From Varibaculum cambriense (GTDB lineage Bacteria > Actinomycetota > Actinomycetes > Actinomycetales > Actinomycetaceae): a stretch of DNA of 64,000 bases. This document shows positions 49,248 through 57,618 of this stretch, in pieces (positions within the stretch are counted from its first letter, which is position 1; each line of letters begins with the position of its first letter). The position numbers were made by a program, and so were the translations under genes. The stretch is taken from positions 1 to 64,000 of the forward strand of contig NZ_JAKNHJ010000010.1 in assembly GCF_022133705.1 (NCBI RefSeq), given 5' to 3'. The notes beneath the pieces were generated by a model. The model saw nothing but the letters and a program-made list of their open reading frames with translations, had not been told where the DNA came from and searched no databases.

Positions 49248-50594
49248 ATGGTTACTGCCAAGCCGCTACTTAGTTACCCGCAGCTGCGGCAGCTAATCGC
49301 GCATTTTCCACCAGTAGAGGATCCGATGGTAGCGGCGCTTACCACCCAATCCGGCTGGCAGCTTTTACAAGAAAACCCTGCCCCAGACCCCTCCGAAACA
49401 GCAGCTATCGCTAAGCACCTGCGCCAGCACTACCCGGCAAATCTGGTTGCGTCTTTACAGACCCAATGGAAACTGCGGGAGAAAGCCCAGGAAAAAATGG
49501 GGAGCTCGCAGGCCAGGAACTGTTTGTTTACCCGCGACGGGCTGGAACAGGCGACCCGGAGAATTGTGGCCAGGCAGCGAGCTAAACGTTTTGCAGCCGC
49601 CGGCGTTACCAGCCTGATAGATCTCGGGTGCGGGATTGGCGCCGACTCTTTGGAACTGGCACGCATCTGCCCAGATTTTCGCGCAGTCGATCAGAGCCCG
49701 GCGGCCGCCACCTGTGCGGCGATTAACCTTGCTGACCAGCCAGGTGCCCAAGTTCTATGCACAAGTGCCGAGCACCTTGTCGCCCAGAAAACTCTGCCCG
49801 CCCTGTTTGTGGATCCGGCACGCCGCGCCGCTACCGGACGTGTCCTCTCCCCTGCCGCCTGGTCCCCGCCCTTCGGGACAGTATTGGAATGGGGAAAGCG
49901 CGCACCCTATCTGGCAGTAAAAATAGCGCCCGGCATTGATCTCGCTAACCTGCCAGCTGGCTACCACGCCCAATGGGTGAGCGTAGCGGGCGACCTGGTA
50001 GAGTGCGCCCTCTATTCCCCCGGACTTGCCCCCGAAGGCCCCGGACGTTCGGCGCTAATCATCGAGGGCGGCGGGGTAACCCAATTCCGCTGCGCTAGTG
50101 CCCGCAATCCGGGAGACAGCCACGTGCAGGTTCCGCAGGCAGCTAGCTTGGGGCACTATCTTTTCGATCCCGATCCTGCGATTATTCGCGCCGGAATCTT
50201 ACCTGACATTTGCGACCGTTTAGAGGCCGCGCCAGTATCTAGCGCAATCGCTTATCTGACTGGAAACACTCTTCCCACCGGCGACGACGCCCCGGCACTG
50301 CACTGCTACCAGATAGTGGAAAACCTACCTTTGAAAACCAAGGTGATTAGCTCTTACTTGCGCTCCCGCCAGGCTACTCGCTTGGATGTCCTAAAGCGGG
50401 GAGTCGCCCTCGACATTGCTGCCTGGCGCAAAAGAGTAATGCCCAAAAAGCAGCGGGACTGGACTCCCCGCACCGTAACCGTAGCGCTAACCCGGGTAAG
50501 TGGAGCGCACCGGTGCCTCGTGCTAGAGGGCGCGGCGAAACCTCAGGACGATAGCCCGGCGCTTCTTGCCGACTGCCCGTTCAGACCCCGATAG
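49248..50594 (+). CDS. SAM-dependent methyltransferase with THUMP-like domain
   Basis: A 448-residue class I methyltransferase common in actinobacteria. The helical N-terminal part (1-90) precedes the Rossmann domain: [16 protein letters not shown] at 123-138 (SAM motif I), RAVDQSPAA (motif II), [14 protein letters not shown] at about 184-197 (DPAR in place of DPPY/NPPY). The C-terminal region with [21 protein letters not shown] and [13 protein letters not shown] is the THUMP-like part. Probably an RNA methyltransferase; substrate unknown. It is convergent with tsaD, with 2 bp between the stops. Confidence 0.82.
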
Positions 50595-50596
50595 AG

Positions 50597-52102
50597 TTAT
50601 CGGCGGGGCTCCACATCATCGGGCGGCTCGACCGTCACGGACGGTTCATCCGGATCTGACTTTTTCGCCTGCGAACGCTCGTGTAGGCGCTGCTGTGCTT
50701 GCTTGGCGTATTCGCGCCCCTTTTCCGCCGCCTGTTCCATGTAGGGGCGTGCCTTCTCCATGGTTTCTTCCGCATATTCACGGCTTTTCTCTGCCGCCTG
50801 CTCCACGTAGGGGCGAGACTTTTCTACCGCCTGCTCTACGTAGGGGCGTGCCTTCTCCACGGTTTCTTCCGCATATTCACGTCCCTGCTCTACCAGTGGT
50901 TTAATCCGGTCGGCAGCCTTTTCCAACCCGGGACGCATTTGGTCAAATGACTTCGCCATGTTTTCTTTCACCTTTCGATAGATACTCTCCGCATCTACCT
51001 GCTTTTCTTGGGGACTGTTGGTCTTAGTCGCTGGTTTTTCCGTATCCTCAGGGCTCGGAGCCATGTAAATCTGGGTGAGCGCCATCTGAGAGTCAGGGCC
51101 GAAATCTATTGGCAAGGGCGGCATTCCCGCTTTCACTAGCGCCTCGCCTAGGGCAGCGATTTGAGCACCATTGTCGGTACAGAAACGAATCGGAGGAATC
51201 CGCACGGTAATCTCCGCAGATTCGGCGCGTTGCGCAAGCAGCTCACGCAGGCGCGAATTCGCGGAAAAACCGCCACCTACCACGATTTCGCGGCAATCAA
51301 AATCTTGAGCTGCCTGTACCGCTTTCTTGGTCAGGGAATCATTTACCGCCTCGGAGAATCCGGCGCAAATGTTTTCGCGGTTAATAGTTTCCCCGGTAGC
51401 CTCTAGCCCCTCAATATAGCGGGCAACCGCAGTTTTTAGACCGGAGAACGAAAAGTCATAGCGGTGACGTTCTTTGTCTTTTCCGGCCGCGAGTCCCCGC
51501 GGGAAACGGATAGCTTTCTTGTCCCCCGCCTGCGCCAAGCGGTCTACGTGCGGACCTCCCGGATAAGGGGTACCCAGCAGGCGCCCTACTTTATCGAAAG
51601 CTTCCCCGGCGGCATCATCAAGTGTGCCCCCCAGTTCCGTAATATCGGTGGCGAGGTCGCGCACCAGTACTAGGTTCGAGTGTCCCCCCGAGCAGATCAG
51701 CCCGATAAAGGGTGGGTGAAAGTCCCCCTCTACCAGGGCATCTACCGCCAGGTGTCCGATTACATGGTTTACGCCGTACAGCGGTTTATCTAGCGAAAGC
51801 GCCAGGGCTTTAGCCGCCGAAATACCCACGGTTAGCGACCCCACAAGTCCGGGACCTGCCGCACAGGCAATCGCGTCTACCTCGCTTAACGCTACCCCGG
51901 CCTCTTCACAGGCAGCCTGCAAAGTGGGCAGGAAAGATTCCAGGTGCGCCCGGGACGCAATTTCGGGAATGATTCCCCCGTAACGAGCATGCTCGTCCAT
52001 CGAGGTAGCAGTGCGATCTGCCAGTAGTTTTCCCCCGCGCACCAGCGCCACGCCGGTTTCGTCGCAGGTAGACTCGATTCCCAGGATCAGCGGTTCACTC
52101 AT
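50597..52102 (-). CDS. tsaD: tRNA threonylcarbamoyladenosine transferase TsaD with a repeat-rich C-terminal tail
   Basis: TsaD moves the threonylcarbamoyl group to A37 of ANN-reading tRNAs with TsaB and TsaE, both encoded about 5 kb upstream on the same strand. The core is residues 1-347: GIESTCDETGVAL at 8-20, HVIGH at 113-117 (metal-binding His), SGGHSNLVLV, DFSFSGLKTAV, GGGFSANSRLRELL and FCTDNGAQIA at about 310. Family members end near here. Residues 348-501 are extra: a charged linker, a helical segment MAKSFDQMRPGLEKAADR, six 11-residue repeats (410-475) and an acidic Pro-rich end. Start at 52102 (MSEPL); in-frame codons to 52189 are upstream. The tail could be translated alone from ATG 50959. 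Confidence 0.95.
   Translation of the reverse strand: MSEPLILGIESTCDETGVALVRGGKLLADRTATSMDEHARYGGIIPEIASRAHLESFLPTLQAACEEAGVALSEVDAIACAAGPGLVGSLTVGISAAKALALSLDKPLYGVNHVIGHLAVDALVEGDFHPPFIGLICSGGHSNLVLVRDLATDITELGGTLDDAAGEAFDKVGRLLGTPYPGGPHVDRLAQAGDKKAIRFPRGLAAGKDKERHRYDFSFSGLKTAVARYIEGLEATGETINRENICAGFSEAVNDSLTKKAVQAAQDFDCREIVVGGGFSANSRLRELLAQRAESAEITVRIPPIRFCTDNGAQIAALGEALVKAGMPPLPIDFGPDSQMALTQIYMAPSPEDTEKPATKTNSPQEKQVDAESIYRKVKENMAKSFDQMRPGLEKAADRIKPLVEQGREYAEETVEKARPYVEQAVEKSRPYVEQAAEKSREYAEETMEKARPYMEQAAEKGREYAKQAQQRLHERSQAKKSDPDEPSVTVEPPDDVEPRR
50678..50875 (-). repeat. Six 11-codon amphipathic repeats in the TsaD tail
   Basis: Residues 410-475 are six uninterrupted 11-mers: YAEETVEKARP, YVEQAVEKSRP, YVEQAAEKSRE, YAEETMEKARP, YMEQAAEKGRE, YAKQAQQRLHE. 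At DNA level a 99-bp (three-unit) period is visible: about 41 bp at 50741 and 50840 are nearly identical. The pattern Tyr-aliphatic-Glu-x2-x-Glu-Lys-x-Arg gives an amphipathic 11/3 helix, known from LEA proteins, apolipoproteins and synuclein. Confidence 0.92.
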
Positions 52103-52189
52103 AGTCCCCATTTTACCCATACCCCAGATTCTCGGCCTAACGATATCGCCTCTAGCTGTAGTAACTCTCTTCGAACAGCATCCGGACAT

Positions 52190-52519
52190 GGCTTCTTCAA
52201 GGCATGGGGCTTCACCAAAAAACAGGACATTGAGGTCAAAAATCAGGACATTAGATTAAAAAATCAGGACATTGCCTGGAAGGGGCTCAGTCCAGTCTCG
52301 GCTCGGCACGCCCAAAAACTCTACGATTTCTTCGGGAACGAGGACGTTTTCTCGCGTTCTCAGGTAACGGAGATATTGGGGATAACCCCCTCCCCGGCCT
52401 CTGAACTTTTGCGAAAACTCCTGGGTGCGTCCCTAATCACCAAAGTGAAAGGCAAAGGAAAAGGTAAGTACCGCTTCAGCTGCAATATAGGAGGACGGTC
52501 AGCTAAGTCAGGTAGCTAA
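52190..52519 (+). pseudogene. Remnant C-terminal winged-helix domain, Fic-protein-like
   Basis: One open frame without a usable start reads GHGFFKAWGFTKK, then three KNQDI repeats, then WKGLSPVSARHAQKLYDFFG, DVFSRSQVTEILGITPSPAS, ELLRKLLGASLITKVKGKGK, GKYRF and ends TAA at 52517-52519. The second part is a winged-helix domain (VFSRSQVTEILGITPSPASELLRKLLGASLI with a basic wing) of the kind found at the C-terminus of Fic-family and related regulator-fused proteins. The catalytic Fic motif is missing. I infer a truncated gene; a start lost in the tsaD 5' region is possible. Fic assignment is moderate. Confidence 0.5.
52217..52279 (+). repeat. Three 21-bp tandem repeats within the remnant gene
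   Basis: Units are built on AAAAATCAGGACATT with variable last six bases, giving in-frame KKQDIEV, KNQDIRL, KNQDIAW. The period is 21 bp, so the repeat keeps the reading frame. Confidence 0.75.
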
Positions 52520-56922: not shown

Positions 56923-57618
56923 CTATTTTCCCTTATTTGGAGGCTGCACGTCCGGGCGGCGCAAATACAGGGGAGATACCGTATCGAGTAACTCATCAGC
57001 TGACTTCCCAGCCAAGCGTACCTGCGCGATCCGGCCGAGGACTGCCGCCTCTACCTCGGTAGGGAGCCCGGGATTTAACGCCAAGTCTTGGGGATAAAGC
57101 CTCGCGCCTGCTCCTGCCACAATCAGCTCGGGAGTCGCCGCTCGGTTAGCGAAAGTAGCGGGTCTGCCCACTTCCGGTCCCCACAGGCAGCAAACATCAT
57201 CGGGGCCGTCCGCGCGATACTGGGCGCAATAAACCTCTTTACGGCGCGCATCGGTAGCCACAAAGACTTCTTGCGTGGGCGGAACCAGATCTAATACTGC
57301 GCGTGCCAGGGCATCTAGGGAACTAATCCCAATCACCGGAACTCCCAGCGCATAACCAATCGTGCGGGCAGTAACCAACCCGGAACGCAATCCGGTAAAA
57401 GGAGCCGGGCCGCGTCCTACTGCCACCGCCTCAATACCGGCTTTCGCGAGGGCGCACCCGCAAGCTTCTTGCACTACCTCACTTACCAGTTCGGAAAGAT
57501 GCTCAGCATGAGACCGGGAATCTTGGCTAGACCGGCTAGCTAACACCGGGGTCTTGGCTTCACTATCCCACAGGGCAACCGAAGCACCCAGCGAAGTATC
57601 AATACATAAAATCCGCAT
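56923..57618 (-). CDS. tsaB: tRNA threonylcarbamoyladenosine biosynthesis protein TsaB
   Basis: A 231-residue paralogue of TsaD that scaffolds the complex. Features: ILCIDTSLGASVALWD at 3-18, DSRSHAEHLSELV, AVAVGRGPAPFTGLRSGLVTARTIGYALGVPVIGISSLDALA at about 65-107, VFVATDARRKEVYCAQY. Together with TsaD and TsaE it makes t6A37. It is 8 bp downstream of tsaE in the alr-tsaE-tsaB-rimI run, while tsaD is displaced behind sdhCAB. Confidence 0.94.
   Translation of the reverse strand: MRILCIDTSLGASVALWDSEAKTPVLASRSSQDSRSHAEHLSELVSEVVQEACGCALAKAGIEAVAVGRGPAPFTGLRSGLVTARTIGYALGVPVIGISSLDALARAVLDLVPPTQEVFVATDARRKEVYCAQYRADGPDDVCCLWGPEVGRPATFANRAATPELIVAGAGARLYPQDLALNPGLPTEVEAAVLGRIAQVRLAGKSADELLDTVSPLYLRRPDVQPPNKGK

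Follow-up and report, generated by a model that had tools for sequence, protein, structure and literature searches.

The window, that is, the whole stretch of 64,000 nucleotides from Varibaculum cambriense that was analysed, encodes on its minus strand a TsaD of 501 amino acids, in a frame (52102-50597) that begins with an ATG at 52102, ends with a stop codon at 50597-50599 and is open throughout. The TIGR03723 model places the protein among bacterial TsaD enzymes with 392 bits (cut-off 296.1), over residues 6-322 and model positions 1-312 of 314, while PF00814 matches residues 26-316 and residues 6-337 can be aligned with the best solved structures of TsaD. The motifs NHVxGH, SGGHS, DDAAGEAFDK and CTDNGA, which we take to be the metal-site and catalytic motifs, are all kept in an alignment of 14 sequences, and the genome has one tsaD match. 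Compared with bacterial TsaD (TIGR03723; YgjD/Gcp), the Varibaculum enzyme has in common the complete core, the single copy and a TsaB encoded nearby, and differs by 154 extra residues, being an intact TsaD with an in-frame extra C-terminal tail. The locus comprises the following features:

51062..52102, minus strand: catalytic core of TsaD, residues 1-347, from TIGR03723 and the solved TsaD structures
50597-51061, minus strand: TsaD tail, residues 348-501 (154 residues), beyond the conserved core
50987..51061, minus strand: variable linker, residues 348-372, equal in length in alignments of the six Varibaculum species
50876..50986, minus strand: predicted basic amphipathic helix without repeats, residues 373-409 (SIYRKVKENMAKSFDQMRPGLEKAADRIKPLVEQGRE), near-invariant in the genus
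50678..50875, minus strand: array of six degenerate 11-mers, residues 410-475, with a unit number that varies by species
50597..50677, minus strand: C-terminal stretch, residues 476-501 and stop codon, ending in the conserved acidic peptide EPSVTVEPPDDVEP
56959..57612, minus strand: TsaB, the TsaD partner, about 5 kb from tsaD (TIGR03725, 154.2 bits, over the cut-off, model positions 1-212 of 212)
49248..50594, plus strand: convergent methyltransferase-like gene, named from a motif by eye, with a stop codon 2 bases away from that of TsaD

The convergent gene is also found 3' of tsaD in four other loci (L004-L007), as well as in two loci where TsaD is tail-less (L011 and L016), which argues that the tail was added to tsaD at its 3' end. 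Upstream of tsaD, an open stretch on the plus strand (52181-52510) reads ...KNQDIRLKNQDIAWKGLSPVSARHAQKLYDFFGNEDVFSRSQVTEILGITPSPASELLRKLLGASLITKVKGKGKGKYRFS and, judged by eye, resembles the final part of a winged-helix protein, the rest of whose gene is missing; its NQDI units are encoded by a 21-bp tandem repeat at 52216-52274.

The extents given for the tail and its array by the first-pass annotation agree with the coordinates listed above. Its description of six exact repeats has to be corrected, as the units (YAEETVEKARP, YVEQAVEKSRP, YVEQAAEKSRE, YAEETMEKARP, YMEQAAEKGRE and YAKQAQQRLHE) are degenerate, with pairwise identities of 18-91% at the protein level and 39-97% at the DNA level, and the array was not among the reports of Tandem Repeats Finder at score 40. 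A single base of 33 separates unit 1 from unit 4 (97% DNA identity), so the array has in part a 33-residue period. The helix before the array carries a four-residue insertion in one Varibaculum species, and the C-terminal peptide EPSVTVEPPDDVEP is unchanged in all six; with a 22-residue query for this C-terminal stretch, one place per genome was found in the six Varibaculum genomes, in each case on TsaD. Regarding a paralogue of the tail in the own genome, the sole other match (E 3.22) lies on a protein of coiled-coil appearance, encoded in the vicinity of a gene resembling that of RNase III, both named by eye.

Distribution of the tail and selection acting on it

The tail is present in frame in all six Varibaculum genomes (G000-G005), with TsaD lengths of 501, 512, 523, 523, 534 and 534 residues, the total changing by 11-residue steps. 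In a search of 213 family genomes with a profile of the tail, only these six had it fused to TsaD, the matches outside Varibaculum being judged through 24 fetched loci or their coordinates and the weak ones partly checked. TsaD of other genera in the family has 346-351 residues by script count in 23 of the 24 loci fetched for this purpose (L009-L032), a count that omits L020, which the motif used had missed. Moreover, in a TsaD tree of 29 sequences, the cores from Varibaculum fall into one group, supported at 100/100. At the level of the order (396 genomes, including no other Varibaculum, and a search that detects only tails resembling that of Varibaculum), no stop-free match among those listed, except the window's own, passes query position 57 (residue 357). 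A candidate from a near genus (L009, genome G014), with a match extending to residue 402, was rejected because it reads through two stops into the adjacent gene. The tailed relatives found in a scan of named genomes are Varibaculum cambriense DSM 15806, V. vaginae and a record named 'Tissierella sp. Marseille-P2918'; the last (L051) bears a Varibaculum-type tailed TsaD, and its title looks wrong.

Judged by these genomes, the tailed TsaD is a genus-specific variant of Varibaculum. A description of a TsaD with such a C-terminal tail was not found in the searchable literature (titles and abstract beginnings), as the first-pass annotation had supposed, nor was Varibaculum TsaD in the literature searched.

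The reading of core and tail as one uninterrupted frame, also proposed beforehand, holds in 6/6 Varibaculum genomes, where non-synonymous change is suppressed; a frameshift or misassembly is thus ruled out by the shared frame and by purifying selection on the tail. Comparing the tsaD of the window with those of G001-G004, the dN/dS was 0.02-0.05 in the core, 0-0.02 in residues 376-413, 0.01-0.02 in the repeats (residues 414-476; these four of five comparisons), 0.04-0.10 in residues 477-501 and 0.09-0.26 in the linker (residues 348-375), all being rough ratios since dS exceeds 1 in many comparisons. Against G005, the values were 0.04 for the core, 0.04 for residues 376-413 and 0.28 for residues 348-375, and the repeats and C-terminal end are given without a ratio, because dS is saturated and the repeats, where pN is 0.21, align poorly. 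The repeats are as strongly constrained as the core, which shows the tail to be real protein, and the linker is also constrained, less than the rest, which speaks for one chain. The fusion of TsaD and tail is almost certainly translated. Since TsaD is, to our knowledge, nearly universal and its length is near-constant in related genera, a genus-wide and strongly selected extra domain is unusual. Between G000 and G005 (L008 and L003), identity is 94% near tsaD codons 301-333 and 76% near codons 367-400, and the core and tail may differ in their recombination history.

Likeness to a single-TM protein encoded beside a PPIase gene

The genomes of Actinomycetaceae encode, adjacent to a PPIase gene, a protein that carries proline-punctuated helical units (RPYVEEA type) in its N-terminal part and has one TM helix and a DPWAEAYW motif. 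It is present in 209 of the 213 family genomes and in 36/36 genera; at the 24 fetched loci outside Varibaculum, the PPIase gene lies within 1.5 kb in all cases, a rhomboid motif was found at 20 and the DPW motif appears in the correct frame at 22 (L063 is incomplete, and the wrong frame was picked in L079). The TsaD tail shares with this protein the proline-punctuated helical units and the segment preceding the repeats, and lacks both the TM helix and the DPWAEAYW motif. This likeness to a PPIase-linked membrane protein is new here and had not been foreseen by the first-pass annotation.

Such a likeness can be read as homology to the N-terminal part of the PPIase-linked protein or as convergence, where the tail would be a local tandem duplication of an 11-mer and the resemblance would be explained by helices rich in Ala, Glu, Lys and Arg with RPY turns. 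Convergence is countered by the observation that, at E<=1e-5, the tail matches outside Varibaculum fall on this one protein in 33/33 genomes (213 searched). When the limit was set at E<=0.01, the best tail match in 59 non-Varibaculum genomes was on the PPIase-linked protein in 48, elsewhere in six (G164, G023, G012, G199, G131 and G161, all with E of at least 2e-4) while for five (G143, G144, G146, G025 and G159) the position falls beyond the listed matches to that protein, the coordinates having been compared by hand throughout. As seen by hhalign, the tail aligns with the N-half of the PPIase-linked protein at 98.5% (score 95.0), 100 column shuffles reaching at most 18.0; however, the reversed N-half still gives 92.0% and a score of 45.5, indicating that the similarity is partly due to helix periodicity and composition, as convergence would have it.

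The part of the tail without repeats also aligns with the PPIase-linked protein, which again goes against convergence: Smith-Waterman z values against the N-halves were 4.8-9.6 in 12 of the 13 rows and 2.4 in the other, and because G030 was entered twice, the 12 rows stand for 11 of 12 genomes. In addition, helix 373-409 and the N-terminal module of the PPIase-linked protein are alike. In hhalign, this part gave only 35.7% (score 25.4) when taken alone, compared to 5.8% (19.4) for the reversed sequence and at most 13.1 in 60 shuffles. Convergence is favoured, in turn, by the search of the 213 genomes with the non-repeat segment as query, where 15 non-Varibaculum genomes matched at E<=0.1, five of them on the PPIase-linked protein, the two best not being among these, and three of the 15 being SecF-like by eye. 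The hydrophobic moment of the N-halves exceeded all 25 shuffles in 4/13 only.

The orthologue of the PPIase-linked protein in Varibaculum itself has 168-177 residues and is without the N-terminal module, which speaks against convergence. Among 39 distinct orthologues outside Varibaculum, taken from fetched loci, a WAxP-type motif precedes the TM helix in 31, an RPY-type motif in 32 and either of them in 37, compared to 0/6 in Varibaculum, the motifs having been picked after inspection. Late-starting matches to the PPIase-linked protein occur in other genomes too, some of them from a split match, and reduced versions are also found in genera near Varibaculum. Of the seven near genera on the TsaD tree whose protein was read (G008, G034, G023, G014, G027, G031 and G019), five have WAxP, the RPY unit occurs in G027 only (EEAADRVRPYLDDA, close to EKAADRIKPLVEQ of the tail), and G031 and G019 have neither motif. 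The strong tail matches that can be placed on this tree, from which G030 and its genus are omitted, lie on the far side from Varibaculum (G028, G036 and G006). Because of these near-genus counts, homology was weighed lower and convergence higher, the scarcity of RPY units being joined on that side by a repeat number that still varies between species and by the 97% DNA identity of units 1 and 4. Taken together, the tail is likely to be homologous to the N-terminal part of the PPIase-linked TM protein, and TsaD would have acquired a copy of its N-terminal module, convergence being a doubtful alternative of appreciable weight.

Regarding more distant relatives, the PPIase-linked protein of Actinomycetaceae aligns at 95.5% in hhalign with ten DUF5324 proteins, which we take to be Streptomyces-type, and the TsaD tail at 39.5% only. 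The DUF5324 model (PF17258) gives 14.3 bits for the tail and at most 19.2 bits for seven PPIase-linked Actinomycetaceae proteins, all below the gathering cut-off of 27. This family was matched in 23 of 148 genomes of the class, with a PPIase motif beside it at 10 of the 12 loci fetched, and 'DUF5324' did not appear in the papers searchable. CwsA (PF10814) exceeds the Pfam cut-off in 11 of 197 class genomes, nine matches being full-length and two partial; a PPIase gene is adjacent and a TM helix lies near the C-terminus in 9/9 full-length loci, and the two partial ones are without these features. CwsA occupies the same genomic place beside a PPIase gene as the Actinomycetaceae protein (24/24 loci). 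Their homology in sequence was not shown, as hhalign gave 15.3%, and PF10814 was absent from the Pfam matches at E<=1 of the seven PPIase-linked proteins; for the TsaD tail against CwsA, hhalign gave 0.8%. CwsA is reported as a small TM protein located at the poles and septum, with CrgA and, in two-hybrid assays, Wag31 as its interaction partners (PMC3989709).

A PPIase gene stands beside the Actinomycetaceae TM protein (L058-L081), DUF5324 (L142-L153) and CwsA (L162-L170), and the three are possibly one very diverged family of envelope proteins. The tail end PSVTVEPPDDVEP (50600-50641) is faintly like the C-termini of CwsA (PSVEVxPxP) and a DUF5324 stretch (WLVEPPAATEVPE); given the hhalign value, the likeness to CwsA is probably due to chance.

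Helix geometry and possible roles of the tail

For the 66-residue array, the hydrophobic moment is highest at 98.0 degrees, close to the 98.18 of an 11/3 helix; its value there, 0.310, lies above all of 2000 shuffles (mean 0.122, maximum 0.246, best of four angles each), and at the heptad angle of 102.86 degrees it is 0.043. Tyrosine takes position 1 in 6/6 units, Lys or Arg (once His) border the apolar face and Glu is found on the polar face in most units, the net charge of the tail being -5. As predicted from its sequence, the array is an 11/3 amphipathic helix, so this part of the first-pass annotation stands. Its further suggestion, that the 11-mers bind membranes, fares less well: on the hydrophobicity scale and lipid-binding index that we assumed, together with their usual interpretation, the index is low in most 18-residue windows within the 11-mers. 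The top window is SIYRKVKENMAKSFDQMR (residues 373-390, index 1.48), located in the invariant basic helix before the array, with other high windows at the array end. Similarly, among 55-residue windows the strongest moment begins near residue 373, above all 40 shuffles in 6/6 Varibaculum species, and the non-repeat helix 373-409 is the best candidate for lipid binding. No hydrophobic stretch that could form a TM helix, as in DUF5324, was seen in the tail from its sequence and window hydrophobicity means.

The 11-mers, several of which end in proline and which have Glu on a polar face flanked by Lys/Arg, presumably resemble the units of apolipoproteins A1/A4/E. This earlier comparison is upheld as a weak likeness, since PF01442 scores 24.5 bits, below the gathering cut-off of 90, and the Varibaculum sequence differs from the apolipoprotein helices in being the tail of a bacterial enzyme with a weaker apolar face.

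Considering all of the above, a tentative explanation, a little short of an even chance as a whole, is a genus-specific TsaD with an acquired helical module serving as tether or stalk. On the Varibaculum branch, tsaD would have gained an amphipathic helical module in the space separating its former stop codon from the convergent downstream gene, derived from the N-terminal part of the single-TM protein that is PPIase-linked, DUF5324-related and in the genomic position of CwsA. The basic helix 373-409 would rest on either the inner membrane or a partner located there, for which the shortened membrane protein itself is a possible candidate; the 11-mers would make up a straight helical stalk whose length can be adjusted, and docking would be the task of the conserved peptide at the C-terminus. 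Thus, TsaD would be held near the membrane with its chemistry unchanged. The likeness to a PPIase-linked membrane protein renders a link to membrane or envelope somewhat more plausible, and a tether-like function of the tail is evenly balanced in our estimate. A bolder version, quite unlikely, is that an envelope protein in the place of CwsA and DUF5324 was broken in Varibaculum, its N-half moving to TsaD and its membrane half staying, and that the halves still meet, bringing t6A synthesis to the envelope. If true, this would be a physical counterpart to the effects of TsaD depletion on size, division and cell wall, as reported in PMC3115834 and PMC12472773 for E. coli and S. aureus.

Another role, without any membrane, would be oligomerisation or regulation in the t6A complex, through a coiled coil between TsaD copies or a fold-back on TsaB or tRNA. 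Long helical repeats commonly self-associate, and TsaB is encoded at full model length. In addition, residues close to the C-terminal end of Gcp in S. aureus are reported to be important for the binding of YeaZ/TsaB (PMC3098269). However, the periodicity is 11/3 and not heptad, and the variability of the linker points to a tail that hangs free, rendering this role unlikely.

A free tail protein could also be made from an internal ATG at residue 382 (50957-50959, minus strand), acting alone wholly or partly. The Shine-Dalgarno-like AAGGTGA 8 bases before this ATG, the ATG itself and several codons near Met382 are unchanged in all six species; nevertheless, a synonymous-conservation scan, with the expectation set by amino acid and species pair, gave observed/expected of 1.2 (z 1.5), outside the top 15 windows, and the linker upstream of Met382 is also kept open and constrained, so this start is very unlikely. 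LEA proteins contain 11-residue repeats, and a protectant of the desiccation or stress type had been proposed in the first-pass annotation. Such a LEA-like role, in which the enzyme or what surrounds it would stay in solution during drying or stress, is most improbable, given that the weak match to LEA_4 (PF02987) reaches 16.8 bits over 29 residues only, far under the gathering cut-off of 51.1, and that it would explain neither the conserved helix without repeats nor the peptide at the C-terminus.

Fusions of a Kae1-like domain to another part are known from Kae1-Bud32 MJ1130, TobZ and HypF, whose partners are catalytic or kinase domains (PMC9654439), in contrast to the helical repeat tail of Varibaculum TsaD. 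If the homology of this tail is real, a domain would have passed naturally between an enzyme of tRNA modification and a protein of the envelope, and the tail would offer a handle on the role of DUF5324-like proteins. Upon TsaD depletion, cells of E. coli shrink and division ends (PMC3115834), and cell size and wall thickness are altered in S. aureus (PMC12472773). These effects may be indirect, through translation; the tail of Varibaculum would offer a handle on whether this link between TsaD and growth or division has a spatial basis.
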